DNA from: Bryum argenteum | Lineage: Eukaryota > Streptophyta > Bryopsida > Bryales > Bryaceae | Direction: 5' to 3' | DNA length: 64,000 bases | Assembly: GCA_037043015.1 (NCBI GenBank) | Contig: CM073323.1 | Coordinates: forward strand, 5,146,001-5,210,000 | Shown: positions 11,389-57,751 of the stretch, one piece after another | Layout of the letters: each line of letters opens with the position of its first letter | Position numbering within the stretch: position 1 is the stretch's first letter | Notes under the pieces: generated by a model | Database searches by the model: none | Told to the model about the DNA's origin: nothing | What the model saw: the letters and a program-made list of their open reading frames with translations, nothing else | Made by a program: the position numbers and the translations under genes

Positions 11389-11710
11389 ATATAGGGTAAA
11401 TATTTCTTAACGACCTTTCGAAAACAACAATGTTTCTGAACGACCGTTCAGAGATATTGCCCTTTTACTGTATCCAAAGATCAAAAACCATGAAAATGTG
11501 TGATATTATGGAATTTTTTGTGATATTACAGAAATCATTTGCTATTACGGAGTACATGTGTGATATTAATAAACATGTCATTCTGTAGGCATAAATACTT
11601 CAGAACTTCACTTCAAAAATATGCTTGTAAAATGGCACGTTTGCACAATATGGCAGTTTAGCTCCGCTAAAAGGCACATGGAATAGTGCCATTTTAACGG
11701 AATTGAGGTT
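11389..11710. mobile_element. MITE of the AACCTCAATTCCGTT family, truncated
   Basis: Ends with TTTTAACGGAATTGAGGTT at 11710, the terminal word of a family also present at 19187/32505, 36047-36480 and 48059-48515. The other end is removed by the LTR at 11388. The interior includes the family's paired GAACG...CGTTC palindrome region (about 11415-11455). Confidence 0.8.
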
Positions 11711-11739
11711 ATAAGAACATTTTTGGATGACAAGCAGTA

Positions 11740-13021: not shown

Positions 13022-14794
13022 CTAACATCTATGTACCTTCACATTTGGTATGGCGCATTTTGGATGAATGTTGAAAGCACACTTTTCACAATGATATATA
13101 AACTCCATGGATTTAATTTGGAGTTTGCAACACTCACAAGTGACACTTGAAACTTTCGAACTCGATGATATAGATTTTGAAGAAAGTACTAACTCGTGCT
13201 CCTTGTGTAAGGGATGTGAAATCCTTCCAACATATTTCGCACATTGTAGGTGCAAATGAAACTCGCACTCGTCAACTGGGCAGTGATACCAAGATTCCTT
13301 GCCAATTTCCAATTGGCAACCTTCACATACCAATCTCGGACTCCTCCTCCACGAACAACCAATTCTTAGTATATGTGGGTGTAAGGAAGATCTAAAGAAT
13401 TTTTCTATCATTGCACATCTTGAATGAAGATAGAGGTCTGTACATGTGGTACACTTCATCTTAGGTAATTCATTGCATGTTTCAAAACATAGTAAGCACT
13501 TGAAGTTTCCACTTTCAAGTTTCTTGGTCGTGTGTAAAAGGTTGTCACATCCAAGTTGTAACTCTTCTACGTCTGTGATCTTTGTCCTCATTTGAACTTC
13601 ATTCCAATCTTTGATCCATGGTAATCTCGAATTCAATGCGATAACAGTCAAGATCTCTTGAATCGAAGGTCTATCACTAGCGTTAGAGTCCCAACATCTA
13701 TATAGAAGTTGTCGTATCCAATCATCTACATATGTTGGCACTATAGGTCGTCGACCTTGAATAACCGATTCCATTGTCACCATTTCATCTTCAAATGGAG
13801 ACTTCCCGGTCAAGAGCTCATACCATGTCATTGCATAACTATAAACATCTGCTGCTTTTGAAAATAGCTCTGGCTTCTGGCTTACAGTATTTTCTTTGCA
13901 AGCATGCAATATTTCAGGAGCCCTCCAATATCTTGTTCCTACTACACCGATTGAACACTCGTAATCCGCTACTTGACACCATCCATCCTTGTTGATTAAT
14001 ACATTGGCAGCCTTAAGGTCTCTATGCACAACATCATGGTCATGCAACCACAACACCCCAAGTCCAATCTCGTACATAATTTCTTCACTTTCCTCCTTTG
14101 AAAATGGTCCCCACCCATATTCTTGTCCATGCATCCTTCGTACAATTAACCTCTGGAGATCATCCTCCTTCATTCCCATCAAAAAAGCAAATCTCCCATT
14201 CTCCAATATTGTCCCACAAATGGGTTTGTTATGATGCGATGTACTTGGCGACAATGGCAATTGATTGCACGCTCGTTTATTTTCATCACTTTCCCATTTC
14301 AAAAATCCATGGGGCCATTGTCTTTGTAAATCACGTAACAAAATACCTTTCTTAAAAACCTTCAGCACATACGTCACATTGTTCTCCAAATCATATTGCC
14401 TTTTGCATGGATCATTCCAGGTAACATAGGCCTTTAAAAGCTCAGCTTGCCCCCCCTCTGCAAACTTCTCACCCACCACCAATGTACCATGTGAATTCTC
14501 ATCAAATGTCCAAAATATATGGCCCCATTCCGGATGCGACTGCAGAGTCTTGAACACTTCTCTATTATCTGCTGCCACTTCCTCCCCGCTTAACCTGAGA
14601 TCACTATCCCAAAGCTCACTCCAGTGCGACTTCGATGTCTCAATCCTCTCTTGCACCATGCTGCTTGACAGACTCTCCACCATGCTCGCATCTTCTGCAC
14701 TCTCATATTGCAAGCTCGAAGAAGCAGTTGCAGCAGACACGGTCGCAGCCACCGACTGAGCTGAGAGAAATTCGCACTCACTTGAGGTCTCCAT
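13022..14794 (-). CDS. Protein kinase with C-terminal DC1 zinc fingers
   Basis: Intact single-exon frame of 590 residues. The N-terminus (1-95) is Ser/Glu-rich and probably disordered. Kinase domain about 105-395: glycine loop FAEGGQAE (111-118), candidate ATP lysine K145 in YVLKVF, catalytic loop HRDLKAANVL (257-266), a DYE triplet (277-279) in place of DFG, RAPEI (291-295) and a helix-F-like DVYSYAMTWYELLTGKSPF. The lysine, HRD Asp and metal-binding Asp are kept, so activity is plausible, although the DFG glycine is lost. The C-terminus has Cys/His modules about 433-460, 488-518 and 530-580 of the plant DC1 type (for example CEFHLHLQCA, CAFNIHPKCA), usually lipid- or zinc-binding signalling modules. 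The last codons abut a SINE target duplication. Likely cytosolic: I see no signal peptide or membrane segment. Substrates cannot be told. Confidence 0.9.
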   Translation of the reverse strand: METSSECEFLSAQSVAATVSAATASSSLQYESAEDASMVESLSSSMVQERIETSKSHWSELWDSDLRLSGEEVAADNREVFKTLQSHPEWGHIFWTFDENSHGTLVVGEKFAEGGQAELLKAYVTWNDPCKRQYDLENNVTYVLKVFKKGILLRDLQRQWPHGFLKWESDENKRACNQLPLSPSTSHHNKPICGTILENGRFAFLMGMKEDDLQRLIVRRMHGQEYGWGPFSKEESEEIMYEIGLGVLWLHDHDVVHRDLKAANVLINKDGWCQVADYECSIGVVGTRYWRAPEILHACKENTVSQKPELFSKAADVYSYAMTWYELLTGKSPFEDEMVTMESVIQGRRPIVPTYVDDWIRQLLYRCWDSNASDRPSIQEILTVIALNSRLPWIKDWNEVQMRTKITDVEELQLGCDNLLHTTKKLESGNFKCLLCFETCNELPKMKCTTCTDLYLHSRCAMIEKFFRSSLHPHILRIGCSWRRSPRLVCEGCQLEIGKESWYHCPVDECEFHLHLQCAKYVGRISHPLHKEHELVLSSKSISSSSKVSSVTCECCKLQIKSMEFIYHCEKCAFNIHPKCAIPNVKVHRC

Positions 14795-14826
14795 GATACT
14801 CGATGCGTACTCACTAGGCTTATCAA

Positions 14827-15900
14827 TAGTGGCCCTTTAATCCCTGACGTAAACCCAGGAAAACATAAGATCCAACGTCTCAGAATGCGAACAAGCTTAC
14901 AGAAATGAATAAATCCTGATCCTCAAACGTGAAACATGTTCCGATCTTGAAAGACAATCTGCGACCAAGCACTTGTTGCAGATTCAATCAATCTCACCTG
15001 GAAAAGTTGTGCTCAGTTATAAGGATAAGAATATCCTCTGTGCAGACGAATCGCACATGAAGACCGGTTAAGAGATGGACTCCCACGAAAAACCTCATGC
15101 TGGGATTGATGACCACATGCCAAAGCGCCAACGTCAGCAATCCATCTTCACGGAGCCAGGCTTCTCTATGCTGATGATTGTTCCTCGCTCTGTCCGAGTG
15201 CTGAATAAGCGAGTGCGAAATATTGCTTGAGACCTTCAACTTCTACTGCACGAATGGGAGTACCAAACGCAAGGGATTCCTGAACCACGCCAGCACTGAT
15301 CCATATTAGCCCACAAGTTCCGACACAAAAAGACGACTCACACGCCAAAAGCTTGCGACACCTCGAATCAGTCATACCTGGAAAGCCGTGCTCGAATAAT
15401 AGGCTAGGATGAACGTCCGCCCAGATGAGTTGTACGTGATGAATAATAAGAGATAACGAGGCTCATAGAATACCGCAATCATTAGGGCCGCAAGTCGAAG
15501 CTCGTATAACACCGCAAAACACAAGCAAAACCGCAAGCGCCTACTTCTGTAACCGGCTTTACAAAGCAAGGCTGCAAAACTCATCAGCCGATGATACTAG
15601 CTTGCTCTACCCGAGAGCTGGACCTTCAACCTCCACTGCAGAAAACAGGAGCTTCTGCACCGCGCAGGCAGTAAACATTTGGTAAGAAGTTAGCAAGGAT
15701 CGAGTCAGTAGGAGGAGGCGGAAGGTGGATTCTTTACCTTAGGAAGAAGTCAGCAGATGTGCTGGAGATGCTCCCAGGCCCGCTCCATTGTAGTGACCAA
15801 GAACACAGAACGCGAGAAGGTAATCGCAAGACCTTGTCAATATCCGAATATCCTGGGTGAATATTGGCAGCACTTTCGTTACTTTGATATATACTAATGT
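14827..15900 (-). other. Region upstream of the kinase gene with duplicated donor-like units
   Basis: Two diverged copies of one segment (about 14990-15240 and 15370-15625) lie head to tail. Each begins on the minus strand just after a TTTCCAG/GT donor-like site (near 14997 and 15379) and each holds a GAAGGTCC/GAAGGTCT-type word at its far end. They could be alternative 5' non-coding exons of the kinase gene or simple duplication debris. I see no coding potential. Confidence 0.35.
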
Positions 15901-19186: not shown

Positions 19187-19224
19187 AACCTCAATTCCGT
19201 TAAAATGGCACTATTCCATGTGCC
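19187..19224. mobile_element. Left piece of a MITE split by the 12.9-kb transposon
   Basis: Starts AACCTCAATTCCGTTAAAAT and ends CCATGTGCC. The rest of the same MITE resumes at 32109 (TGCC duplicated) and runs to 32505. The uninterrupted order is seen in the reverse complement of 11389-11710. Confidence 0.9.
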
Positions 19225-19250
19225 GGGTGGAAGCATGCTAGGGTGGATCA
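19225..19250 (+). repeat. Left terminal inverted repeat (26 bp)
   Basis: Identical, inverted, to 32083-32108. The sequence diverges right after the 26th base. Subterminal GTAC words follow (AAGTACTTGTACG at about 19260). Confidence 0.93.
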
Positions 19251-20285
19251 GTTTTGGACAAGTACTTGTACGTCATTTGTACGCAAAGTCAACGGAGTTT
19301 GCCGGCCTTGGATCCAGAAGTACTTGAGGTACTCCAGACTAAAATTAGGTGAACTACAAGCCGCTGACTTCGCGCTTTAAACCCTGTCGATGTGATTGGC
19401 CGCCTTTTTTTGATTTTGGCTGATACGCGCATGATTTGAAATCTATTTCCGATGTGGCGACCGGCGATCACTTGTCTCGGGGGGAGGGGGAACCGGTGGC
19501 AGCCGGTAAGTGCCGTGGGAGCTATTGGCGGGAACCAGTGATGGCCGGTGCGGAGGGGTCGTCTCGCACCTCTCGCTGTGGAGAGTTACCAGCGCGCCAT
19601 TGTTTTTGAAATTTTGCGAGGGATTTTGAGGGTTGTGAGATGTTTTGCGAGTTTTGTGCGAGGGTTTGCGTGGATTTGTGAGGGTGAGGGTTTTTGTATT
19701 GCAGGGCTTGCGAGGGTTTAGGAGGGTTTGCGAGAAGTGTTTGTGCTCCTTTGCTACTGAGGAGTCTTAGTGTTGCTCTGTCTCGAGGGTCGTAGTGTTC
19801 GTTTGCCTCGTGGGTAGTTTTGATGAGGGTGTACAAAGCTGGTGAGTGAAGTGAGTGTCTAAGGCTGGTGAGCGAGGGTGCGAGTTGAGGGTGTCATGCT
19901 GTGGAGAGTGTGCTTTTCAGAGTCTGGTTTTGAACTTTTGCGAGGTTTGTCCATGCGCAGGAGGGTCTTACTGTGTCTTAGTTTTTAGCAGGGTGTACGA
20001 GGCCGGTGAGCAAGGTGAGGGTTAAATGCTGGGGAGCGAGAGTGCGAGGTGAGGGTTTTAGTGAGCGAGGTGAAGGTGTACTGTTGGTGGGCGAGGTGAG
20101 AGTGTACTGCTGGTGGGCGAGATGAGGGTTTAGGGTCTGTGAGCAAGGCGAGCGTGTGAGCGAGGCTGCAAGGCAAGGGTTTGAGTGCTCCGACTTTCGG
20201 AGATTTTTCTTGAGTGTGTAGGGTGTTGGAAACTTGCGGGTTCCTGGGGTTTTTGGGATTTTCTGTGTTGCAGGTGTGATACGAG
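19251..20285 (+). other. 5' non-coding leader of the element's plus-strand gene
   Basis: From about 19605 to 20165 it is built of degenerate GCGAGGG/GTGAGGG words, G-rich on the plus strand. TTGTATTGCAG (about 19692) and TGTGTTGCAG just before the ATG at 20286 look like splice acceptors, so a 5'-UTR intron is likely. The long open frames on the opposite strand here are by-products of this bias. Confidence 0.5.
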
Positions 20286-22084
20286 ATGACGAGGATGAAG
20301 CACACACCTGTTTTGCCGAGAGGAAAGCCTGGGGGGTCTCCCGAGAAGACTGTCGCGAAGGCTGTCTTGAAGGCTGTCCCGAAGGCTGCCTCCAAGCCTG
20401 CCTCTAAGCCCTCCAAGGGTACCTCAAGCTCGAAAGGAGGGTTGAATGCAGCCTCGAAAGGAGGGTTGAATGCAGCCTCAAATGCTAGTGGGGAGCCCGA
20501 CAACGAGCAGGAGCGTGACGAAGTCCTCGAGGTTGATAGAAGCGATTGCGATGAAGACCTCGACCTGGTGGATGTCGAACATGCTATAGAGAAGTGCAGG
20601 CAACCACCTGCGAAGCTCTTAGTGGACGACTGGGTCAACAAGTTCGGGCTTGTGGGGGAAGGGTTGAACCCCAAACGATTTAGCAAGACATTCATGGATC
20701 CGAAGTTGATGGAGAAGTTCTTCGGCAAGCGAGCAGGCAGAGATGGGCGCTCTGGGTACAAGTACCAGGATTGCGCTAACAAGGAAGTAGTGGCGAGGAT
20801 TTTCGAGCTGCATCCCGTAATCTACCAGCACGATCGAGACCACATGCCCACGCATCTGAAGGTCAAGTTTGCGGAAGGGATAGTCTACGAGTTCGAGAAC
20901 AGCCGCGGGTCAGTAAATTGGGCTGGGTTTGCGCAGGTGGTGAACAACACGCAGCGGGTGAGGAGGGGTACAAAATTATGCAAGCTCGAGGAGTGCAAGG
21001 AGAATGGAGTTACGAAAGTGAGCAAGGAGGTGCTCAAAAAAAAAATTCCAGAAAGAGGCGGTTCTTCGATCTCAAAGAAGGTGAGACTGTTTGATTGGCA
21101 ATTCTGATTGTTTGAATGCATTGAATGCTTTTACATGCTTGAATGTGTTGAATGGTTGAATGCTGTGAATGGTTTTGTTAGAATTGGATTTGAATGCTTG
21201 AATTCTTGAGCGGTTTAGGGTTTTTGCTTGCATTTTCTGACATAATTGGTGTTGTTTGAGACCATGGCAGGATGTTTCTGAGGTCTGCGCCTCCAGAATT
21301 CCCACGAAGCAAGAAGAGGATTTGGGTGCATCCACGGCAGAGAGGATTAAACGCCTTACAGAATTGGCAAGAATCCTTGGACTTGAGATTGGGGCGAGAA
21401 AAGCTGCTCAGACCTCAACCACGCAACGCATCGCTGCTGGGAGGAGTGAAGTAAGGGCGATGGAGGTCAACGGGGCCCATCTCGAGGAGCAGCTTGCCGG
21501 TCTGAGAGCGGATGCGTGGGATGACAACGAGAATGTAAAATGGGAGATTATGGCACATGAGAGGATTTTGAAAAGAGTTCATATCCAATTTGAAGAAGCA
21601 AAAGCCGTTGTCCTCCAAGCAGAGGGAGAACTAGAAGAGATTGAGGGCCGGATAACAAACCAGCAACGGGAGTTGGCCGCCATCAACGAGGAGGCATCAC
21701 ATTTGAAGTTTGGAGGCCGGCCCTCTGGATTGCACCCATGGCCGATGTTCTACCGACAACAAGCTGCAGATGATGGCGTAGTGTCGATATCTGTGACGAC
21801 TTGTGTGTTTTGCAATTTTCCATTCCCAAATTGTGATATTGTTGTATCAAGCTACAGGCACGTCTATCACCCATGGTGTGCTTTTGTAGTCTTCTCGAAA
21901 GGTTTTCGGTGTGCTCTGAGAACATGCGAAGCACGAGCACATCCAAGCTGGCATCAAAGCTTTGGATGGGGGATTCCGTCTGAAGAGATGGTACAAGCGG
22001 CTGCCAAGTGTGACATGGATGGTGAATTGCAGCATCTTTTGCAGCTTCGAGAGGAGAATGTGAAGCAGCACCCATTGAATGCGG
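20286..22084 (+). CDS. Transposon-borne coiled-coil and zinc-binding protein (5' exons)
   Basis: Two exons, 20286-21080 and 21271-22084, joined by a GTGAGA donor and a GGCAG acceptor in the same phase, give 536 codons up to a GTATGT donor at 22085. Residues 1-65 are a basic, Lys/Ser/Ala-rich repeat (KAVLKAVPKAASKPASK). An acidic patch follows, then a globular segment (about 105-245, DDWVNKFGLVGEGLNPKRF, GSVNWAGFAQVVN). About 288-410 is a long coiled coil. From about 445 there is a Cys/His cluster, CVFCNFPFPNCD...HVYHPWCA...CALRTCEAR...HPSWH, consistent with a zinc finger of RING/PHD-like spacing that I cannot name. The open exon end in phase 1 fits an acceptor at 24157 in front of the SET-protein exons, so both may form one gene of about 1,247 residues. 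Otherwise the message ends a few codons into the intron. Confidence 0.7.
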
Positions 22085-22300
22085 GTATGTTTTTTTTTCA
22101 ATTGCTTTATTTTAATGTGTGTGCAGGGTAGACATGTGTTGGAGGGTGCATGTACCATTTTGAAGGTGAAACGTTGGTACTTGTATTTTTGGAGGTATGC
22201 TTGTGTCCAAATGTGCTAATGAGTACGTCTGAGGTGAATTGGATATTCATAGAAAGTTTTAAGGTAGCAAGATTAATTGTGAGGTAGAACCGAAGGTACG

Positions 22301-22456
22301 CTGGTAGTAGTTCGGCTGAGTAAGGTAACCAAAGTTGTGTAATGGGTACTTGCTGGTAGTAGTTCGGGTGAGTAAGGTAACCAAAGTTGTGTAATGGGTA
22401 GTTGCTGGTAGTAGTTCGGGTGAGGAAGGTAACCAAAGTTGTGTAATGGGTACTTC
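22301..22456. repeat. 52-bp tandem repeat, three units
   Basis: Units start at 22301, 22353 and 22405 with CTGGTAGTAGTTCGG and differ at only a few positions. The overlapping minus-strand frames with repeated THYTTLVTLL-like peptides are artefacts of the repeat. Confidence 0.92.
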
Positions 22457-23169
22457 CATTGTACTTTAAAAATAGATATGAAACTGTTTATGTAACTTAG
22501 GTACAGCCGTAGTGACATTGGAATACATTAGTACATTACAGTGCGTAGTGAGAGAGAGGTACTGCTGTACATGCATAGTGTGTACTCCGTGGTACACATT
22601 TGTGTATACTATGTGTATAGTTGCACTCTTTACGTGTAGTTTGTACCGTCCAAGTGAAAGTAGTATGTCGAGCAAACACAAACAGAAACATGACTACTTG
22701 ATACTAATTCTTGAGTATTTTGCATTTATAGATCGGTGTATGTATTTTTTTGTTTGTATTGGTTTTTACGTATTCGATTTTTACTACTGGCGCTGGTTGT
22801 CTTAATTGACAAAAAAATGACAAAAACTCACAATCGTGGTGTCAATTTTAGTACCCTGATTCGGTCATGTAGTTGATGTAACCTTGTCAATTCGGTCACA
22901 CTCAGTGCGAAAAATACACGTAGGATGTACGGGTTGCTAATGTAATTGCCATGTTGGATTTATCTTGCCATGTCACTATTACACTATGGTGATAAACTTC
23001 CACGTAGGACTCCAAAGCCTCCTTTTTTTTACAATTTCACCATTTCCCAAAGATTGTGATTTTTTTTAAAGGAAGTAAATGTTAATGTTTACTGCACCTG
23101 AAATTATTATTTATTTTCATTTCTACTTTTACGCTTCTTGAGGTAACTACGATTCTACTACCCATGAAA

Positions 23170-23290
23170 AATAAAAAAACGCATTATCAACCGCCACCGG
23201 TGGGGCCCACCACGAACTTCACAAACTGTCGCTACCCGGGCTTGAACCAATAACCTCTTCATCCCTAACCCATGTCTCCAACCGCCACAA
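23170..23290 (-). mobile_element. Possible tRNA-derived SINE head
   Basis: On the minus strand GTGGCGGTTGGAGACATGGG and, 20 nt later, TTGGTTCAAGCCCGG resemble A and B boxes of a polymerase III promoter. No target duplication was found, and the tail may be the poly-A side of the neighbouring T-rich repeats. Confidence 0.4.
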
Positions 23291-23379
23291 CACTTACAAA
23301 CGTTCATGCACATGTGCGTTTAATTTTGTAACTTATTCAAATACTTAACCATTGGCGATTAATTTGCCATGTAAAAATT

Positions 23380-23770
23380 TTTTTTTTTTTCAAATTTTAT
23401 TTTCCACTATTTCATGCAGGTATTTTTCTATATGTATAAAAAATTTCAATTTTTTTTGAATTTTTTTTTTTTTTGAGGCTGGGGCGTTTTTTACTACCCA
23501 GCATACTTTGAATATTTTTCACGGTGTAAAAAAACATTTTTTTTTCAAAATTTTTTTTCCACTACTTCATGCAGGTATTTTTCTATATGTATAAAAAATT
23601 TCAAATTTTTTTGAATTTTTTTTTTTTTTGAGGTTGGAGCCTTTTTTTACTGCCCAGTTGACTTTGAATAATTTTTACAATTTAAAAAAAAAAAAAAAAA
23701 AAAAAAGAAAATTCAAATTTTTTTTTCAATATTGCATGCAGGGATTTTTCTATATCTAGAAAATATTTTA
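23380..23770. repeat. T-rich tandem repeat, about 155-bp unit, 2.5 copies
   Basis: The word GCAGGTATTTTTCTATATGT recurs at about 23417 and 23571, and a variant at about 23740. The units are separated by homopolymeric T and A blocks, including an A run near 23684-23705. Confidence 0.8.
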
Positions 23771-24159
23771 AAATTTTTCAATTGTTTCTTTTTGAAGAAA
23801 TAATGATGCCCCAAAGCATCTTTGTTTTTCAATTTGCATTTTTATCAATGTCTGAAAAATAATGAAAAGATTCCCAAAGATTCCGTAAGATTCCGAAAGA
23901 TTCCAAACTATTCCAACAATATTCCCTAAGATTCCAAAAAAATTCCAAAAAAATTGACAAAAGATTGACAAAAAAATTTGAACGAGTGAGAATTGACAAA
24001 ACTCCGTGTAAATTGACAGAAATCCAAGGTGCGAAGGCCTTTTTGTTGATTTGGACATTTCAGTGTCAATCTTTAGTAGGTTTTACACCCATTTTCTTGT
24101 AGTGTTTATACCCTGTCTAACGCACTCCAATGTGAGATTGGAATTCCAATGTTTTAGAC

Positions 24160-26737
24160 ATGCGAACGAAGCCCTTCAAGGCACCCCCGGCTGTAGACAA
24201 GACCAACAAGGGTAAAGCGGTAGAGCTGCTGCCGGGTACGTCAGCACCGAAAGGTGTAATGACCGCTGACACGAATGATAGGGTGAAGACGCCCCAGCAG
24301 CCATGTGAGGTCCATGTTGCAGGTACATCGAAGGAGCATAAGGGTGTATCCCCCCGGGTGCATGTAATGAAGAAGAAGGGCGTTTCCCCACCTCAGCCAT
24401 CAAGAAATGCAGGTTTGTAAATTGACATAATTCTTGATTATTGCATTGGCTACTTCATGCATTGACATGTAATATACATGTTTCTGTATTACAGAGCTAT
24501 TGAAGGGCATTCCGGCTCAAGAATCTGAGTCGGATGAGGATACAGCCTCCTCAAAGAGGGAGGAAGGATCAGACGACGAAATGGAGTCTGACGATGGGGG
24601 GGACTCGCCTAGCAGCCACGACGCGGGGGCATTTTCGCCCACTCAAGCAATGGAAACAGCAGGCGAGGACACGCCACTCGACTCTCAGCAAGTGGAAGTA
24701 GTTGCAGCCGCCAAAGACGCGCCAGTCAAGTCTCAGCCTCCCCCCACCGAGGACACGCCCCTCAAGTCTCAGCCTCCCTCCACCGAGGACACGCCCCTCA
24801 AGTCTCAGCCTCCCTCCACCGAGGAGATGCCACTCGTCTCTCAGCCTCCCCCCACCGAGGACATGGACATGCCATTCATCTCTCTGCCTCCCCCCACCGA
24901 GGACATGGACATGGTACTCAGCTCTGAGCCTCCCCCCACCGAGGACATGGACATGGTAGTCGACATTCAGCCTCCTCGAGCCGAGAACATGGCAGTCAAC
25001 AGTGAGCCTCCTCGCACCGAGGACATGGCAGTCGACACTCAGCCTCCTCCCACCGAGGACATGGCAGCCAACACTCAGCATCCCCCCGTTGAGGACACGC
25101 CAACGCAGGCCGCCCGTGCCGAGAGTCCAAAGGATTCATCCTCTCCCTCAAGATCAGCCTTCTACGTGCAGGAGCGAGAACCAGAGACCGAGGCGTCTCC
25201 AGTGGCGGGGACTCAGCCGAATCCAGTGGTCGAGGAAGCGTCGAGGACTAGGAAGACACGACCACGGCTGTCACCATTGGATGCGCAGGAGGACCCTGAT
25301 TTTGATACACCGATTCAGGGGAAGAAGCAAAAAATGAAGAATGTGAACGCCATACAGAAAGAAGGTGCCACCTCTCAGGGCACCACCAAGACGGTGAGCA
25401 AGAAGAAAAAAGGGAAGCGATAGTGGGGGTGTCATGTATGTTATTTTTTGTTTTAAATATAGCGGTTTAGCGTTATTGTGTATTTGTGTATGATGATAAG
25501 TTTGTCACTTATTGTCACCAATTTTTTTTATAATTACAAAGCAATGTTTCACCTTCACTGATGACCCGCAGGCTACCTGGTTTGATCCGATTGACCTTAC
25601 GAGGGGAATGGCGCCTCTAGCTGTATCAGTTGATGTGCCTGTGGAGGTTCAATGCCCCATGGCTCCGTTTGTTTACCTCGACACCAATATAATGTCGGCA
25701 CAAGTTGTTGTGGATAATGAAAGAGAAAGTAGTTCTAATTGCTTTGGGCAGGATTGCACCTTGAACCCGGGTGCATGTGAATGCATCCAAAAGCTTGGCG
25801 GAAATTGCGCCTATAACGGTGACGGTCACTTGCAGGAGGTTGATGCGAGCGAGGTATCTGAGGTATTGGTCATTCAACCTTTGTTTTTTTTTTTTGATGT
25901 TTTTAGCTTGGGCAAGAATGTGCTAACAGTTTGCTTGTGAGGATTTCCCAGAACCAATATTGTAAACCGGGGGAGGGGTGTTACGTTCAAGAGCAAACAA
26001 GCTCGTGGGACCCTCAAGATGGAACAGTAGTTTGCAGTGGACATTTTGGGAGGAAATTTATTTTTGAGTGTAACTTGACTTGTTTGTGTCGAGGTAGCTG
26101 TAGAAACAGGATTGTACAGAAAGGTGTGAGTTTAAAACTTAGTGTGTTTTGGACGGGTAAGAAAGGGTGGGGGCTAAAAACTTTGGAGCCCATTGCAAAA
26201 GGTCAATTTGTGTTAGAGTATCATGGTGAGATCTGTACTAACGCAGAAACAATGAGGAGGACGGCAATGGAAGATAGAAACGGGTGGTATGCGGTGAGCC
26301 TCGATGCAGACTGGAGAGCAGAGGCGGCCAGCAACGACTCCACAGCGTTAAACATTGATGGACTTATTTACGGTAATGCGTCACGTTTCATCAATCACTG
26401 CTGTGATGACGCAAATCTTATCGACATGCCAGTGAGAATCGAACGCAGTGACCAACGTTTATATCATGTTGCATTTTTTGCAAATCGGAACATTGCGGCC
26501 TTTGAGGAACTAACATGGGTATGTGCATATGTTAATTTAATCCATTCCTCGTTTCGGTTTCAGTTTATGTCTATTCTTGTCGTGTTTGTGAATGGGATGG
26601 AATTCTCATTGTGTTTGTGACTTGCCGGAATGCATGATTATGGTACGCAGTGGCAGGGTGCGGAGACAGTGAATAGAATTTGTTATTGCGGTTCCCTATT
26701 CTGTAGAAATCCACCCCTTGCAAGAGTTCGGGAGTAG
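24160..26737 (+). CDS. SUVR-like pre-SET/SET histone lysine methyltransferase, transposon-borne
   Basis: Exon model 24160-24412, 24495-25393, 25572-25853, 25907-26518, 26651-26737. All junctions have GT/AG and keep frame, giving 710 residues. The first 380 residues are disordered, with about ten copies of a TEDTPLKSQPPS-like repeat. A cysteine-rich pre-SET follows (NCFGQDCTLNPGACECIQKL...GNCAYN...IFECNLTCLCRGSCRNR). The SET domain has KGWGLKTLEPIAKG, EYHGE and SRFINHCCDDAN (for NHSCxPN), and the post-SET reads CYCGSLFCRN. By family it would methylate histone H3 lysine 9 in the nucleus. The conserved DYG that should follow ELTW lies at 26636-26644, but no AG precedes it. The only usable acceptor, 26650, splices in frame and drops DYG. 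A stop is reached at 25423 if the 25394 donor is not used. May be the 3' part of the gene at 20286. Confidence 0.82.
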
Positions 26738-27004
26738 CCTTTGTACTAGTTTCTGCCTTAATCTAACAGAGGGAGCAGAACCTTTACCATTCGAAAAAAT
26801 TGCACCGATGCCATTCTGTGAATGATTGTGTTTGAAGGATTGTGTCTGCAGCAGGGCCCGGCTCACGCTGTAATTGTTCTTTTCTAAAGCAGCAGCTACA
26901 GCTTGCCATAAAGTAAACAAAAAACCGTCATAAGTGTTCGTAATATTGGCACCATGTTGATGTGGCCCCTCTCTCATGGAACAGTTCCATTCACCATCCT
27001 TTAA

Positions 27005-27059
27005 GAATGAACTTTTATACAGAGTACTAGAAAGTACTTCGTGCGTACTTCATACAGAT
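27005..27059. repeat. 55-bp direct repeat, copy 1
   Basis: Identical over 55 bases to 27169-27223. Contains two AGTACT palindromes and a CGTACTTC word like those near the element's ends. Confidence 0.93.
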
Positions 27060-27168
27060 GTCTACGAGATTTTTGTACAAATAGGTACAACAATGTAATT
27101 GAAAGGAACCACCTTGTTACTGAGTGTATGCAAAGTGGACGACATGTACTCAGAGTGATTATAAATGA

Positions 27169-27223
27169 GAATGAACTTTTATACAGAGTACTAGAAAGTA
27201 CTTCGTGCGTACTTCATACAGAT
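27169..27223. repeat. 55-bp direct repeat, copy 2
   Basis: Second copy, 164 bp from the first. The absence of mismatches in a decayed element suggests recent duplication or conservation. Confidence 0.93.
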
Positions 27224-27300
27224 ATTTCTCAAAGTACACAGCATATGCAGCTCAAACCAACGCCAATCCCCAACTTGGTGCACCTAACTAGCACTAGCAC

Positions 27301-30300
27301 TCAACTTGTATCCTCTTCAGTTGCCCACCATGAAGAAAGAACTTGCTGGATCATTTCCATGGTCTCAGAACTCATCTTGTAAACAGTTGTATGACCTGCA
27401 ACTATATGAGGAGCTAATATCATTGGAAATTTCAATGCCCTTACATGATGGGCAAAAATATGGGCCACCGGTTTTGAGTCCAAATAAACAAACGTGTTGG
27501 ACCCTCTCCCGTTCTTCTGATAGTAATATCCAGCCACGGCAAAATCTCCTTTCTGAAACTCTTCTCCCCATGGGCAAATGAAATCTTCTTGGACCTCAAA
27601 CTTTAGCTTTGTACACTGGAGCACATAAAAGTCAACCCCTTCGTCATTGCCCTCCATTGCCGGAATCATGAAGTTGTCACCAATCTGGAGAAGAGCCGCA
27701 TTCGAATCATTCTCACCGCCATGTAACCAATTATCAGGATCATCATGAGCTTCGATTTGCTCTTGAACAGCAGCCACGTTTGTTGGTCTAAGACGAACTA
27801 CCCGCCAATTTGCAACATGTGACTTCTGTTCACAACTAACCCACTCTTGATTGATGCAAGGAGCACAAAAACATGACAAATCACGAACCATTAGCAGAGT
27901 AGGGTCAGTCAATGAACATCCAAATATACTATGGAATTGCCTAGATCCTGAAATTGTCCTACACTTCCACTCATTGACTCTATTGACATCGCCAACACCA
28001 ACATGCCAGAACACTCGTGATATGGGCACTTCATTAGAAGCATCTGATGAACTAGCAACTCGATGAGAGAACTTCAAATTTAGAAATTCCACACATTGAA
28101 GTGCATTCGCTAATTCATACTCTGGGTGTTGGATTTGATGGGTCCGTAATGCCCTCTTCGCCACTGCTCCAGCTCCATCCCATTCTCCTGCATAAAAGGT
28201 ATCACATTTTTAGAATCCGTTTTCAGTCCTCAAAATATTCTGTGCGTACTAATGATAATTCGTATGCACTCACAGTAATTATAAGCTTCACTACAACAGC
28301 TACAGATCTCAATCACCAAAAGCAAATCTTCATGTGCAATGAAGTATACCTTTTCCATGGCCACTACCAAAAAAATTCCAGCGCATGGTGCATCCTGTGA
28401 GGCCCGGATACCGGGCCACAAAATACATGGCCCTTGACCCCTTGAACTGCCCCGCGCATCCGTCACTATAGACCCAATGCTCATTGGGTTTTATACCTGT
28501 AGCCAACAACCATTTCCAGTGCAAAAGAAGGCAATGCTGTACAAACAACGAATCATGTTTTTTGTCATCACTTATATAATAATGAGTGTGCTTGATTATG
28601 CCACCTTCCTCACCTTCACCTGATGGGGGTGCCCTGTAGAAGGTAATGTGCACAAGTATGGTTATTGAGGTACTAAACCAATGCATGGATTGTACCTCAT
28701 TTTGAATAGCAAAGGTATAATTTTCTGCAAAATCGATGTGAGAGATTAACACACCATCAGGAACGTTCTCCATCATCTTCCTACATTCAGTATCTTGCCA
28801 TGATGCAACAAAATTGTGGGTAACAAATTGTTGCACTTTTTTTTTGAAATAAGGTACAAACTCACCTGGAGATGTTTCCTTGAACACCTCTGTTATGCGC
28901 TTCTTTTCATAACCAGTTTCTTCATGCACCCCAATTACTTTCATTTCAAAACACCTCCACTTCATCAAAATATCAGTAGCAAGGGACAATTCTTGAGGAC
29001 AGAAGTTTATATGATCGACACCACAATTCAAACATTGACCCATTAAACAATCAAGCTTGTGCCACTTATCGAATTCCCCCTTTGGACACACACACGCTTG
29101 CCATAAAGAGGTGATGCGTTCGAAAGTATTGTCGGATGCACAACAATTATGACTTCCACTCCCACATACCTCACACTTGCATATGCATCCTACATGGCAA
29201 TTATTCCCCTTGGAGGTATCTCTGAATGTATTTAGAGCTTCCCTTAACAAATCTACTTCGACATGATACACACAACAACAACTATTTTGATCCTTAAGAG
29301 TTTTTACATACCACGGCTTCAGGTATTCGAAAGAACGTTGCTTCAAGCGGCACTCTGGATGCGCTTCCTTGAAAGCGATAAACAATTGAGCCTGCCACAA
29401 AATGCACAGATCAGAGTTACGACATCTGAGGATATAGCAATGACTCTCAATTTCGTACAAGAAGTACATTGAGTATAAAGTCTACACGCTTCTATGCGCC
29501 TTTTTTGCATTAAAATATACTCAAAGTACATAGTGACTGGATATGCTCCAGAACACTTCGTACAGATAGTACAACATACGAAAGCACTACTACTTTACTA
29601 CCCTTTCTACCAACTTTGATATTTACAATAGACAGCATACTCCAAAGTACTCAATTTCGTACATTGTATACTGAACTTCCTACCAACTATACTAATAACA
29701 CACAAAATCCACAAATTATGTAACCACGGTACTCTTCCCTATACTTAAAGCACTTCAAGAGTATACGACGAGTACTTAGTGACCACAACATATGTACCTA
29801 GAATACCATGCTGTTAACTCAACAACTTCTACCACTACTGTGAACCACGCAGGTACACACACATTACACACATTACACAAATTCTGCCAATGGAGTATCT
29901 TCATGAACATTACCAATACTATTAACACCTAAATTACATTTTAATTAGTACTTCAGTACAAACACTGAACTCCACAGAATCAAGTGGCCAAGTGGGTACC
30001 ATCCTAGGTACAAATACCATAACATTTACTCCGAGCTACCCCTTCTACGCTTGAGGCCAACTACACACTTGTATCACACATCACAGTCCAATTTCAAAAA
30101 CAATACGATCCCTTCGAATGCATTTTAAAAGAGTAAGAACAATACCTGAGTGTCTGTGAGGTAATGAGTTGCGTGCACGATGTACTCATTCCTCCCTATA
30201 CGACGTCGTGTCACATCTTTCTTGTTAGGAGACACACGGGATCTCCCGTGCCACCAAGCACGCACAGTTTCCTTCACGTAGGCAGACAGACCAACACGCT

Positions 30301-31264
30301 TTGCCCGCTCCAGAAGTTTGTATTACTCCCGTACATCTACACATGTACTTCTCCTCTCTATAGCATTCAAGATATTCCGAGGATGCACCTGCACACAACT
30401 TTCCCTTCATCAACACATGCTGCAATTGAATTGAATGCTTCCTTCATGATCACACATCAACACACAATACGTTCATGCAGTAAACCACAATTCAAACATG
30501 CAGTCAACCGAATCAACACATGCAGTCAACCGAATCAAGTTTACAGACGAAACCGTCTGTGATGCCCTCTGATCACCCACAACAAATTCTTACCCTAAAC
30601 CTAGCCGCCACAGTTCATTACTGACATATTTGTGAATACTCACAGCACCTGCGTGACTCCGCTTGCACCGCAATACGGCACCGAACAACTGGAACACACA
30701 AGCGAATAGGATACTAAGAACGAACCTGTAACACCCTCGACAGAAGCCGTCTTGATTGATCCCTTCACGACGGCCGCATCCGAAGAACCCCTTCCGCGCA
30801 AGAAACTCCTTCGACTGGGCACCTTTAACTGCTTGCAACTCATTGCGATAACTCACAAGAAACGAGCATATCGATTTGGCCTCGTAAGGTCGTGGGTAAT
30901 ATTCCGGGAGCAAAGGCCAAATCCACGTGGTTTAGGACCTTCTCGAGTACGCTTTTTTACATGTCGGGGTATCGCAACGTTCCAACTCCTCCATGATATA
31001 CTCTGCAAGCATGTTTGACCTCCGACTCGTCATCCGATCGCCCATTCGACTAGTTTCCACAGAACCTCGACTAGAGTGTCGGTTCATTTGCCCACCCTGA
31101 TCTCGCGCTGCTAGCCTTGCCCGATATGCCTGCATTCTTAGGCGCGAACCTTCAGCCAAGGTCGCACGTCTCACTTCAGCAGCTCCTGCGGCGTCCGCTC
31201 TTCTTTCAACAATAGCTCGTCTGATGCCAGGACGAGTTCGCTCCCGATTCTGTTGATTTCCCAT
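27301..31264 (-). pseudogene. Cys-rich transposase-like gene, multi-exon, interrupted
   Basis: Exons on the minus strand: first about 31264-30857 (ATG, Arg-rich MGNQQNRERTRPGIRRAI, then ELERCDTPTCKK), 30388-30146 (VHPRNILNAIERR...GRNEYIVHATHYLTDTQ), 29391-28350 and 28187-27301. The last three have exact GT/AG sites and matching phases (724 codons together). The third exon has a Cys/His-rich zone (CHVGCICKCEVCGSGSHNCC, CLMGQCLNCGVDHINFC), then SHIDFAENYTF and WVYSDGCAGQFKG. Its last motif spans the junction, FFGSGHGKG/EWDGAGAVAKR. The Asp of DFAENY, the Asp of YSDGCAG and an acidic residue of EWDG are candidates for a DDE/D triad on an RNase H fold. Damage: an in-frame TAA at 30323-30325, and an apparent 1-nt loss in the homopolymer 30953-30958. 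The exon near 30857-30720 is unresolved. Superfamily unassigned. Confidence 0.72.
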
Positions 31265-31560
31265 CACTTCGCACGTGAAACTCAACAGCTATCTCAAAGC
31301 TTACAATGACCAACCCCAAGAAAAACCACTGCCTGCAAGAATGTGCAAAACCCTAAACCAACACCGTGCAGAATGTGCGACCTAAACCAACACCGGCAAC
31401 ACTGATCCCACCTGACATGGAAGCTCGTCTAGGGTAGAACCCTAGATGCACCGGGTAAGGTTGACGTGGCCACATCGGATCCTCAGGCATTTAATGCCAC
31501 CTCCAACGACATTTTCTATAACCAGCGGGGTCAGAGTACAGTGAGTACGAAGAAGTATTG
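28351..31560. other. Introns and 5' flank of the transposase-like gene
   Basis: The intron of about 29392-30145 is rich in GTAC and AGTACT words. The 5' flank (31265-31560) is GC-richer and includes TGACGTGGCCACATCGG near 31460. No further gene is seen between 31560 and the right TIR, only AT-rich DNA with the word CGTAACGTACTTTT twice (about 31878 and 32069). Confidence 0.5.
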
Positions 31561-32082
31561 ATTATTGATTTTCCCGCACTTCCTGCACAAGGACTTTGGC
31601 GCCAAAAATCAGGGATTCGCACCCACATGCATCTGCATATTAGAATTCTAAGTATGTTGGGAAAAAAAAATCAAAAAACATTAATTTTTGACTAACTTAA
31701 ACCATGTCAAAGATTTAGCCCTTTGACCGATGCAAATTGCTAGGAAATAATGAGTTTTTGGGATGTAATGATGAAATATGTTCATCATTACATTGCGCTC
31801 AATCTAACCACATAATTTTTTTGTACTTTGTAACTTAATTTTAACCAAATTTGAGTACTTTATCACAATTTTGACTGCCGTAACGTACTTTTCTGAAAAA
31901 CTTTGAGAGTAAAATCCTATATGTTCCAAAGGTTTTTGGCAAAAAAGGACAAGTGATTTGCACACTTAACGACTCCTTTTACCTAAGTCCTCAAAAACAT
32001 TAGTACTTTGGATGGTGAAGGGGCCCAAGAAGGGGTCTAGAACAAGAAAATTTGACAGAATTAGAGGGCGTAACGTACTTTT

Positions 32083-32108
32083 TGATCCACCCTAGCATGC
32101 TTCCACCC
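32083..32108 (-). repeat. Right terminal inverted repeat (26 bp)
   Basis: Reverse complement identical to 19225-19250. The next four bases, TGCC, repeat those left of the element. Confidence 0.93.
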
Positions 32109-32505
32109 TGCCACTTTAGCGGAGCTAAAGTGCCATATTGTGCAAACGTGCCATTTTACAAGCATATTTTTGAAGTGAAGTTCAGAAGTATTTATGCCTA
32201 CAAAATGGCATGTATATTAATATCACACATATACTCCGTAATATCACCAAAATTTCTGTGATATCACCAAAATTTCCATAATATCACACTTTTATGGTTT
32301 TTGACCTTTGGACACAGTAAAAGGGCAATGTTTCTAAACGGCCGTTCACAAACATTGTTGTTTTTGAACGGCCGTTCAGAAATATTTACCCTATCATGTC
32401 AAAACTCCACAAAAACTCAACAAAAACTAGCATCATTTTTTTCATTTTAAGCACCCAAAAAGCGCCATTTTAGCGGAATAACGCCATTTTAACAGAATTG
32501 AGGTT
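32109..32505. mobile_element. Right piece of the MITE split by the 12.9-kb transposon
   Basis: Continues the MITE begun at 19187 (CACTTTAGCGGAGCTAAAGTGCC onward) and ends CAGAATTGAGGTT. Contains the family's palindromic pair AACGGCCGTTC at about 32338 and 32368, which can form a hairpin. Confidence 0.9.
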
Positions 32506-41443: not shown

Positions 41444-41915
41444 GATCGCATCCCCCTGGCCGAGGTTTGTGTGCAAGGTTTAAAATTTAAATTAAGACGT
41501 CTGCCAGTCCTGTTTTAACCCTTTATCGTCACCCCCAGCCAAATTGGCGTAGCTGGGGGCCTTGCGCGGTTACGGGGGCCGGAGCGGGCATGGGTCGCGC
41601 CTGTCGCCGGAAGACACTGCCGACATTTTCGTGCCGCGGTTGTGAATCTCTGCTCCGATCCTCCTGCCGTTTCCGCAATTGCTCAGGCGGGAATCGTGCG
41701 AGGCCAGGGCGAGAGCGCTTGTGTGCAAGTGGGGCAGGATCCCCACAGACTTTGTACAAGCCGGGGTTTAGAGTTGACAACGGGTTTGACTACTGAATAT
41801 CGGGAGAATAGCCGTTGCCTTCACCGTTCAATGAACAGGGGTGAGTACCGTTGGTATCTTTGTTCAATGTCTTCTTCTTATTTGGGTCTATGCTGAAGTT
41901 TAGCGGTTGGTGAAG

Positions 41916-44900
41916 ATGGGTGTGGAGAGGGAAAATTGCCGCTCGAGGATTGAAAGGGAGATCAGGAGGTGGTTGCAAGAAGATTTAGGGTGTTTTCAAG
42001 ACATAGTTGCAAATGAAGTGTGTTTGATGCTTGATGAGGATTACCTTGCTTCTAAGCCAAGGCCCAAGAGTGTTGTGTGGCCTCCTATTCCTCTTGGTAG
42101 GAATTGGAGGTTTTTGTTCAGGCATTTAGTAGCAAGGCAGTTAGGGTGGGTTGCGAGAAAACCCTTCCCTGATTCGTTGAATACCTTGTTGAAAGAAGAT
42201 TGGTGGCCTGATCAGGAGGAATTGAAGCCTGTTGAAATAGTAGAAGTCATGGAAGGCAATTTGAGGTCTCCTACACGTTCTGTGAGGGTGGAGACCCGGG
42301 TGGAGGTGAACAACACTCCTGTTAGGGTAGAAACTGTGATTGAGATTGGGTGCTCACGTCGCGTGAAACCAAGGAGAATTGCGTTTCAGGGGTCCAGCAG
42401 CGTTGGAGGGGAGGGGGTGCCTGTTGCGAATGAGGAAGAAGGCGGCCAGGGCCTGGCTCCGACAGCGCCGGCTCCATCAGCGGCAGCCGATCGGGGCGGC
42501 CAGGGCCGATCGCCAGCGTGCGCATCGCCGCCGCCGGGGAGGTGCATCGGGAGGGGGGCTCCCGGTGGCCGGCCTCAAGTGCTCGGGAGGGGGCTGCCCA
42601 CCGCTCTCCCCAAAGTGCTCTCTGTGGAGTGCGAGTCGCCAATTCGGCGGTTTAGGGGTGGTGGCCGACGGGGTCGTGGGAGGAGGTCTACTTCAGCAGG
42701 TGAGTTTCCTCCACTCTCCAATTTTTTGCAATTCACACGTCCAAGTGAATTGATGGACAATTCTCATGTGCATGGTTTGATTGATCAGGAGGATCTCCAA
42801 GCGGCTTCCCGTGAGTTGGATGGTTTGCTAGATTTGGTGAATAGCGGCGTGGGGGGGGATTTAGATTCACAAGGGTTAGCTGATTTTGAGAATGGCTTGA
42901 GGATGTGTAGTAGAAATGTTAGATTGAGGTCTGACAGGGTATTGATTGCACCATCTAGTGACTATGAGCTTGGATTTCGTGGGAAGATTGTGATTGTGCC
43001 CAGGAATGAGATACCGTTGCTTCACATTGATCATGAATCTCCATGTTCTAGTTTGCTTGAATTCTGGGGTATTGTAATGCATGATAGTTTTGATGTGATT
43101 CATGGGATTCAATTGCTCACTGTCAATTTCTATGGGCCTTGGTGGACGTTTGTGGTTCCGGAACCTCTGTGTGTGATTGTTGAGGATGGTCAACCAAGTA
43201 GTGTGCCATTTCTTCAAATTTGGGGTAGGAATGATCTTGATTCTTTGGATGAGGAAGGAAGTTCTAGCGGAGTAGTTAGTACAAGTGATGATGAATATTT
43301 CCCACATGGTAGTGAAAGTGATGATGAGATGGGGGAGAAGTTAGACTCTACGGTATTGACCCCAACTACAAAGAAGTGGTTGGTAAGTGGGGGTGAGATG
43401 CGGAATGAAATTGGCTTGGGATACAATGATTATGCTCAAATTTGTAACATGCCTGAGAATGAGAGGTTTAGTGAGTCTATGTGGAATTCTACATTGACAC
43501 AATTGCCTAGTATGGAGTTCATTGGGGAGCATGAGGGATTTAGCTAGGCCACATTGGATTGCATTGAACCTCTTGATTTCTTCTCATTGTTTTGGCCTAC
43601 TTCAACTTTGTCAAAGATTTGTATGCAAACTAATTTGTATGCTACAAGTTTGGATGAGAATGGGGTAAGCAAGGGTGGCTTGAGGTGGACTCCGTTGGTA
43701 ATGTCCGAATTACGGGCATGGTTTGGGGTGCTCATGGTGATGGCGTTGAAGAAGGTCCCACAAACACGGTTTCATTGGTCTAAGGACCAAGAGGTATGGA
43801 GAACCCCTGCAATTGTGAAGTGCATGAGTCGTACTCGGTTTGAGGCTATTTTGAGATGTGTGCATTTGGTTGATAATGACACAATAGTGCATGATAAAAC
43901 CGACCCGGGCTATAGCAAGATGGCTAAGACTCAATGGCTAGTAGATGAATTCAATGTATTGTGTGGTCAAATGTGGGATGCAGAGAAGAACTTGACAGTA
44001 GATGAAATGATGGTACCATATACGGGTAAGTATTCGCCTATAAGGCAATACATGAAAGCTAAGCCTACCCAGTATGGTATCAAAATTTGGTGCTTAGCAA
44101 ATAGTGTGTTTAAGTATGTTCAACACATGGAAGTTTATTGTGGTGCCTCCACTTCAGAGGATGACAATCATGCCACGGGGTTCAGAATTGTCAACCAATT
44201 GATGCGGGGCCACAAAGGTAAGGGTCACATTGTGACATGTGACAATTTTTTTACTAGCTCTAAGTTGTTTTGGTGTTTGCTACAAAAAAGGATATATGCA
44301 AATGGTACATGTAGATCTAATCGTCTTGGCTGGCCTAGTGCACTCACTATAAACCCAAGAACCGGAAGTAGGGGTCAATTGTGGTTTAGAATGCATGCTA
44401 GTGGTAGGATGGCTGCTATTTGTTGGTTTGATAACAAACCCGTGTGCTTGTTGTCTACATCATTCTCTCCATTAGATGCTAATGGCCAAGTCTACATTTC
44501 TAGATGGCATAATGGAGAGTTTGTTTCGGTGCCTTGTAGTCCCATACTAATCCACTACCAGGAAACCATGAGGGGAGTTGATGTCCAAGATCAACTACGA
44601 GGATACTACACCGTGCAGCGCAAAGACCACAAGTGGTGGCACCGTATCCTATTTCACATCTTAGATACATCTTTTGTGAATTCCTACATTATTTACAAAT
44701 CACATATGGCTCAAGCAGGTAAAAAGTGTATGGCTCATGTGAAGTACAATTTGCTTGTTGCTAATGCGTTGATGGCACAATATACAGTGTGTGAGCTTCC
44801 ACGGACTACGGTTGTTGGTGCAGTGGTTCCACGCCCAACCAAATTGCATTACACAGATAAGTTGGTTGCAGAGAAGCGGAAGAGGAGGACATGCGTAGTG

Positions 44901-44993
44901 TGTGGCAAAGTAATGAATTTTTATTGTCCAACATGTAAAAAATCCATGTGTATGGGGAAGTGCTTCGTGGATTTCCATTCTAGACGCATTTGA
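41916..44993 (+). pseudogene. piggyBac-family transposase with one in-frame TAG
   Basis: One frame from the ATG at 41916 to the stop at 44991-44993, broken only by TAG at 43545-43547. The 3' part (from 43554) is a full piggyBac catalytic domain: Asp in LTVDEMMVPYTG, Asp in HIVTCDNFFTSS and Asp in MRGVDVQDQLRGYY. It ends in a Cys-rich finger CVVCGKVMNFYCPTCKKSMCMGKCFVDFH typical of the family's DNA-binding C-terminus. The 5' part (543 codons) has an acidic, Gly/Arg-rich N-terminal region longer than usual for the family, including a GC-rich insert (residues about 165-260, GRGAPGGRPQVLGRG). The protein would cut and paste DNA at TTAA. The TAG lies just before the conserved DFFSLFW start of the transposase core. 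It may be a recent mutation or separate two proteins; the amino-acid pattern reads straight through it. Confidence 0.85.
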
Positions 44994-57648: not shown

Positions 57649-57751
57649 GATTTATAGGTTAAACAACAAATAAATAGTTATGATGTATATATATAGTAGA
57701 AGAAAATAATAATAACACGAATAATATAAAAATAACATTTGAAATTTAAAA

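Follow-up and report, generated by a model that had tools for sequence, protein, structure and literature searches.

A SUVR-type SET-domain gene carried by a large group of DNA transposons in the moss Bryum argenteum

A 64,000-nucleotide stretch of the Bryum argenteum genome (hereafter the window; G000:C3:5146001-5210000, within 258.8 Mb in 25 contigs) contains, at window positions 19225-32108, a DNA transposon with terminal inverted repeats (TIRs) that carries a SET-domain methyltransferase gene of the plant SUVR type. The element belongs to a large and varied group of such transposons, in which the SET gene accompanies a transposase gene and a further gene, here termed gene 1. The explanation that we favour, that these are SUVR-SET-bearing TIR transposons and that the SET protein counters the silencing of the element, has in our estimate a probability of about one half.

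Both ends of the window element were read directly from the sequence. The 26-bp TIRs at 19225-19250 (plus strand) and 32083-32108 (minus strand) agree at 26 of 26 positions and are flanked by the duplicated tetranucleotide TGCC at 19221-19224 and 32109-32112, as the original prediction had stated. A paralogous empty site, in which a single TGCC is present and the element is absent, lies within the window at 11618-11711 (minus strand) in the same flanking repeat, and the joined flanks of the element show three differences from it over 95 columns. The three gene modules anticipated inside the element were all recovered: a coiled-coil protein with a RING-like finger, a Pre-SET/SET/post-SET protein and a Cys-rich transposase-like protein. 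The coiled-coil and SET genes lie on the plus strand and the transposase gene on the minus strand, converging.

The genome was searched for further copies. The 26-mer TIR, allowing up to three mismatches, occurs 264 times and a reversed-pattern control 0 times; a shorter end motif, GGGTGRRAGYAYGCTAG, has 137 exact occurrences, again with 0 in the control. Ends of the type GGGTG..CTAG, with 4-bp target-site duplications (TSDs), are found across the element group. Pairs of ends were drawn from 100 listed matches of the 264 for the 26-mer and 100 of the 137 for GGGTGRRAGYAYGCTAG. Among these listed termini, 22 convergent pairs and three more (C4:7031089, C9:4186864 and C9:7598963) span more than 9 kb. 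The SET gene is present in all 25 of these large copies and gene 1 in 24; the transposase exon was detected in 20, and 19 hold all three genes. Short TIR-bounded pairs of 598-845 bp contain none of the three genes and look like non-autonomous derivatives.

A perfect 4-bp TSD was found at 13 of 13 copies checked, a sample made up of the window element, 10 of 11 further large pairs in one list and two pairs from deep families (TGCC, CACC, ACAA, CTAA, CACC, ACCG, GCAC, TTTT, TGAC, ACGT, GACA, TAGA and ATAT). The last two, TAGA and ATAT, bound deep-family stretches of 42.7 kb (C4:9153341-9196010) and 69.8 kb (C1:34728652-34798468) with the same three genes, which were presumably enlarged by nested insertions. 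In the sequence available, an empty or empty-like paralogous site was found for three of 11 copies checked, the window copy and two others, and not for the remaining eight. Inverted ends common to many copies, a constant TSD length and an empty site are together the marks of a TIR cut-and-paste element. Two further deep-family end pairs, which begin GGG and match at 19 of 24 positions, have the TSDs TTTA and TGGT; because the end search required a TSD match, these duplications are not independent evidence, and they were kept outside the 13. In five mispaired controls for that search, chance pairs reached 17-18 of 24 matches. For a third deep family (C2, loci L111/L112), element ends were sought and no convincing pair was found. 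At C9:3764707-3794177, four partial end matches spaced by about 9.8 kb on one strand form a tandem-array-like arrangement that includes an element end.

The three genes also keep fixed positions relative to one another. Linkage was tallied on the best candidates only, and all locus counts are lower bounds. In a first search, of whose 156 SET matches the 150 listed were used, merged loci numbered at least 138 for SET, at least 136 for gene 1 and at least 122 for the transposase. Gene 1 lies upstream on the same strand at no fewer than 94 of the 138 SET loci, the transposase downstream on the opposite strand at no fewer than 86, and both at no fewer than 67, with 0 or 1 in wrong-side or wrong-strand controls. 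When a deep-family transposase and a deep-family SET were added as queries, at least 119 of 143 transposase loci had a facing SET within 15 kb, and no fewer than 115 had one at 5 kb or less; the three other arrangements gave 0 to 2. Of 183 SET loci, at least 147 had gene 1 or the transposase as a linked neighbour; the host SUVR gene and two SUVH-like genes are among the remaining 36.

At the remaining 24 of the 143 transposase loci no facing SET was found; gene 1 lies near seven of them, and five of the seven, with transposases 71-72% like that of the window, look from their sequences like one family. At one locus of this family (C8:12734600-12737300; L113 and L114), gene 1, a low-complexity protein ending RKRAGKR and the transposase are present. 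Among SET-bearing families, some transposases are closer to that of the window than the transposase of the SET-less family and others are more distant (55-58% identity), so loss of SET is likelier than its primitive absence; on these identities, rather than on a transposase tree, the family more likely reflects secondary loss. The original prediction had asked for several copies with the same three genes between TIRs and 4-bp duplications, which 19 of the listed large copies bear out for the genes and all 13 copies checked for the duplications, and had named TIR-bounded copies lacking SET as evidence against it. On the latter the outcome is divided: SET is universal among the listed large copies, but the short copies are gene-free and SET is apparently missing from one family that has the other genes; SET is therefore better described as retained but dispensable.

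The SET gene of the window element is on the plus strand. A low-complexity acidic and proline-rich part at 24160-25393 (exons 24160-24412 and 24495-25393) is either its N terminus or, if read to the stop at 25421-25423, a separate protein; the low-complexity protein kept by the apparently SET-less family resembles it. The Pre-SET exon, delimited by splice sites, lies at 25572-25862 (Pfam PF05033, E value 4e-7); it is followed by an exon at 25907-26518 with the end of Pre-SET and the SET domain (PF00856, E value 3e-16; GWG at 26165, RFINHCC at 26384 and EELTW at 26504) and by the last exon at 26636-26737, with DYG, the post-SET motif CYCGSLFCR and the stop at 26735-26737. Pre-SET, SET and post-SET, all present here, correspond to the SUVR1/2/4 class. 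Among 34 sequences, the motif GWG is found in 31, RFxNH in 33 and NHxC in 30, and three of the four NHxC misses are exons ending at NHR; some element copies carry broken SET genes. In a survey of the ELTW splice junction, limited to plus-strand loci, 14 of 16 readable loci have AG|GAYTAYGG (the exceptions are the window copy and L022) and 14 of 16 have a GT donor (the exceptions are L010 and L035).

The closest named proteins found to the element SET are plant SUVR4 and SUVR2 (38%), and among solved structures SETMAR, EHMT2 and SUV39H2 are nearest in sequence. A tree of 46 rows, some on long branches, was built with 34 element SETs, four host SUVRs and two SETs unlinked to the other genes; the incomplete L021 and L036 were dropped, and the near copies L094, L096, L101 and L102 were not added. 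The 30 best SET loci of 156 matches were the input to this tree and to the selection analysis below. The element SETs, host SUVRs and two unlinked SETs (40 rows) are split from SUV39 and SUVH with support of 100/99.9; a SUVR group without the two unlinked rows is absent from the best tree and is not rejected by the approximately unbiased (AU) test (p = 0.248). The host SUVRs group together (94/91), and the 28 element SETs nearest that of the window form one clade apart from them (99/99). The best tree needs three changes for the 34 element SETs; a tree that unites them all in one clade scores 3 log units lower, and the AU test does not reject it (p = 0.223). The expectation that element SETs would form a clade apart from host SUVRs thus holds for these 28 and is not shown for all 34.

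Intron positions and phases point to the route by which the gene was acquired. The host SUVR gene and the SET of one deep family (L100) share introns after RLQ/KLN, within NHR and after YYH; the intron within NHR is also common to other deep families, and the ELTW|DYG intron is common to the host SUVR and the main element group. The SET gene therefore entered as genomic DNA, by capture or descent, and a retroposed capture is ruled out by the same introns. That the element is a transposon of this group and that its SET descends from a host SUVR gene through genomic-DNA capture is, in our judgement, nearly certain, which bears out the suggestion that a host gene had been captured; the exon structures indicate that some element families lost introns afterwards. 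Two near-identical SETs, L103 (C10:13369400-13370100) and L104 (C1:28397100-28397800), have a SUVR-like exon end at NHR and no linked gene 1 or transposase, and may be either an additional copy of the host gene or an element that has decayed.

The element SET is kept by purifying selection. Of 434 pairs compared, 46 had a synonymous divergence (dS) of 0.05-1.0; their median ratio of nonsynonymous to synonymous divergence (dN/dS) is 0.228, and all lie below 0.5. The SET genes of the window element and of the copy at C4:15376471, both plus-strand loci, are separated by a dS of 0.007, which marks them as recent copies. Gene 1 gives a similar picture, with a median dN/dS of 0.191 over 40 pairs, 92.5% of which are below 0.5.

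Exon 1 of gene 1, at 20286-21104 (plus strand; open for 819 nt, with 140 genome matches and a donor candidate near 21081), encodes a helical domain for which a search of known families gave no assignment; its alignment has 29 invariant columns across 24 of 30 fetched loci. Exon 2, at 21241-22090 (ends approximate), encodes a coiled coil and a RING-H2-like finger (CVFC... at 21802). It has matches at all 30 fetched loci, with the RING-H2-like pattern wherever the frame is intact, and the finger matches Pfam zf-ANAPC11 weakly, below the cut-off (E value 0.015). The window copy has Tyr at one zinc ligand of the finger, a position occupied by Cys in nearly all other copies. A fold search with a model of only 69.5 pLDDT (predicted local distance difference test) gave no match at E ≤ 0.001, and a homologue search returned three unnamed metagenome proteins and no named relative. 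Any part that gene 1 might play in targeting or in the transfer of ubiquitin is speculative.

The transposase gene is on the minus strand. One exon, at 28396-29379 (123 genome matches), encodes a Cys-rich part and the first two catalytic candidates, in IDFAENY (28717-28740) and SDGCAGQFK (28441-28470); its open frame runs past 28396 to a candidate splice donor near 28350, after GHGK. The third candidate Asp, in EWDGAG (28153-28185), and the C-terminal part lie at 27304-28209, with an acceptor near 28187. A candidate gene start, MGNQQNRE, is placed by open frames at 31241-31264, and the exons between it and 29481 have no fixed boundaries. Pfam, NCBIfam and PDB sequence searches returned no hit that passed a cut-off or had an E value below 0.1, Foldseek by itself yielded none at E ≤ 0.001 and a scan of viral contigs found no relative; named relatives occur in the moss Ceratodon purpureus and the liverwort Calypogeia fissa. 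Structure prediction for an intronless relative gave an RNase H/integrase fold, and the transposase has a candidate site of three aspartates (D-D-D) in this predicted integrase-like fold. The protein, described at the outset as DDE-like, is thus a predicted RNase H-fold DDE/D transposase.

The idea that a transposon can bring along a histone methyltransferase has precedents: in the oomycete Phytophthora, HarbingerS and MuDR families carry SET methyltransferase genes (Kojima and Jurka 2014, as described in passages of PMC12730594). HarbingerS shares with the present elements the SET gene but has a Harbinger transposase, of the PF13359 (DDE_Tnp_4) kind; the transposase of the window element has no such Pfam match, whereas a Harbinger-like ORF elsewhere in the window was recovered with that family at an E value of 1e-33. 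More broadly, HarbingerS and SET-bearing MuDR have oomycete hosts and Harbinger or MuDR transposases, whereas the elements described here combine 4-bp TSDs, a SET of plant SUVR1/2/4 type and host introns. MuDR elements produce TSDs of 8-11 bp; here the TSD is 4 bp, and there is no MULE Pfam match. Sola elements have 4-bp TSDs overall, a DDD catalytic site and plant hosts. By description, the TSD length, the DDD-type site (here a candidate one) and the plant hosts are alike in Sola and the present group. In amoebozoan Sola2 families, the TSDs are 4 bp and AT-rich, such as AWWT (passages of PMC3627910), whereas TGCC, CACC, ACCG, GCAC and TGAC here do not fit AWWT, and the term 'SET domain' is absent from that paper. 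EnSpm/CMC transposases, including Chapaev and Lanisha, have C(2)C and H(3-4)H between the second D and the last acid (passages of PMC12730594); in our alignment, judged by eye and taking D349 as the last acid, there is no C(2)C pair between D307 and D349. Fungal DNA transposons with TET/JBP genes (KDZ, Plavaka, EnSpm and others), for which an escape from silencing has been proposed (passages of PMC12730594), likewise carry an enzyme that edits host epigenetic marks, but this is a DNA dioxygenase, in fungi and with other transposases, rather than a histone methyltransferase. Plant SUVR1/2/4 proteins resemble the element SETs in Pre-SET/SET/post-SET architecture, in the large clade and in introns, and differ in that the element proteins are transposon-encoded and have no detected WIYLD domain. 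SETMAR, in primates, is a SET domain fused to a mariner transposase. SET and transposase occur together in both systems, but SETMAR is a host gene that acquired a transposase, whereas here a transposon acquired SET.

Among the papers listed in literature searches, no SET-bearing plant transposon was recognised by title and start of abstract, which is not proof of absence in print. The original prediction knew of no named plant superfamily with this content; within the scope of those searches that still holds for plants, although SET-bearing DNA transposons had already been named in oomycetes. As far as the literature was searched, what is new is the land-plant host, the capture of a SUVR-type gene whose introns are still those of the host gene in part, a transposase without a Pfam match and a SET gene that is widely kept and under selection.

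Plants silence transposons via methylation of histone H3 lysine 9 (H3K9). In Arabidopsis, according to passages of PMC7218100, dimethylation (H3K9me2) and non-CG methylation silence transposons, trimethylation (H3K9me3) is euchromatic and SUVR4 converts the monomethylated form (H3K9me1) to me2/me3; judging by its title, a paper cited in that review (Veiseth 2011) reports an action of SUVR4 on the chromatin of transposons. In the mechanism that we favour, the D-D-D protein would cut and paste the element, gene 1 would serve as an accessory or targeting factor and SET would counter-silence newly inserted copies. The enzyme would act on H3K9 in the chromatin of the element and drive me1/me2 toward me3, a euchromatic mark in plants, which would starve the host loop of H3K9me2 and non-CG methylation of its substrate. 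Given the roles of H3K9me2, H3K9me3 and SUVR4 set out in those passages, we rank counter-silencing first, self-limitation second and targeting or assembly third; a product that helps an element to escape should also be easier for selection to keep than one that restrains it. The counter-silencing step is put forward tentatively, as the leading possibility among the three and somewhat less probable than not.

Several observations weigh against this explanation. CpG and substitution-context statistics gave no clear methylation footprint either way, for compared loci that include unrelated flanks. WIYLD has a single match in the genome, at the host SUVR gene (C2:8745808), and none was detected in the element SETs; the elements therefore carry a SUVR-derived SET rather than a full SUVR, and a SUVR4-type product cannot be assumed. 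The last SET intron of the window copy ends in AT, against AG in 14 of the 15 other copies read, so that splicing of SET in this copy is probably defective; this and the Tyr zinc ligand in the RING-like finger make a partial decay of the window copy probable. The tree is compatible with a single capture and with several, because a single clade of all element SETs is not rejected. No SET was detected at C8:12734600-12737300 in the part that was read, which covers all but some 3 kb of the 5.7 kb that separate gene 1 from the transposase, and a gene-bearing family thus seems to manage without SET. The reported action of SUVR4 on transposon chromatin, finally, would fit self-limitation equally well.

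Under self-limitation, SET would place H3K9 methylation on the element's own copies and damp both transposition and its cost to the host. The Arabidopsis reports of this SET class on transposon chromatin (passages of PMC7218100 and the cited title) and the coexistence of many copies in a small genome speak for it, but a trans-acting product that lowers its own spread is hard to select among elements, and yet dN/dS is low; we consider this account unlikely, though a serious competitor. Slightly less probable is that SET marks or docks on H3K9-methylated chromatin and steers integration, or aids assembly of a transpososome with gene 1 and the transposase. The linkage of the three genes across great divergence and the conserved zinc finger of gene 1 would be expected in that case, whereas the TSDs show no common motif by eye and one family persists without a detected SET. 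A bolder form of counter-silencing, in which the elements constitute an unnamed bryophyte superfamily with the captured SUVR as a core gene that would rewrite element H3K9 methylation toward me3, and the RING-like protein replaces WIYLD in a self-contained counter-defence, is improbable.

Two simpler accounts dispense with any function of SET in a transposon. A captured host gene might be a passenger, since transposons do acquire host genes, SET is broken in some copies and one family has none detected; this is very improbable and was rejected on the presence of SET in all 25 listed large TIR copies and the low dN/dS of all 46 usable pairs, with the catalytic motifs kept as well. A chance pair of inverted repeats, or a host SUVR gene cluster near unrelated transposons, might be imagined in so repeat-rich a region, but the probability is negligible: the 13 perfect TSDs of 13, the empty site and the conserved gene order (0 to 2 counter-examples) rule it out.

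In these transposons, a SUVR-type methyltransferase has been kept under purifying selection while diverging to about half identity, which makes it directly testable whether genomic parasites exploit the silencing mark for escape, self-restraint or targeting. SET-bearing and SET-less families offer a natural comparison inside one genome, and the shared introns reveal genomic DNA as the route of a host chromatin gene into a transposon. If counter-silencing is true, genomic parasites may edit the host's own silencing marks.

The window contains other repeats and genes. Two consecutive open reading frames (ORFs) occupy 41904-44993 (plus strand): the first (547 aa) matches nothing in Pfam, and the second (481 aa) matches PF13843 (DDE_Tnp_1_7; E value 4e-70), which we take to be piggyBac-type. 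A 462-aa Harbinger-like transposase ORF lies at 56263-57651 (minus strand; PF13359, E value 1e-33), a 604-aa ORF with protein kinase and C1_2 domains at 13022-14836 (minus strand), and Ty3-type gag and zinc-knuckle ORFs at 5893-7290 (minus strand). Between 7720 and 11388, nested inverted repeats of 146-655 bp, 93-97% complementary, are centred at about 9.5 kb.

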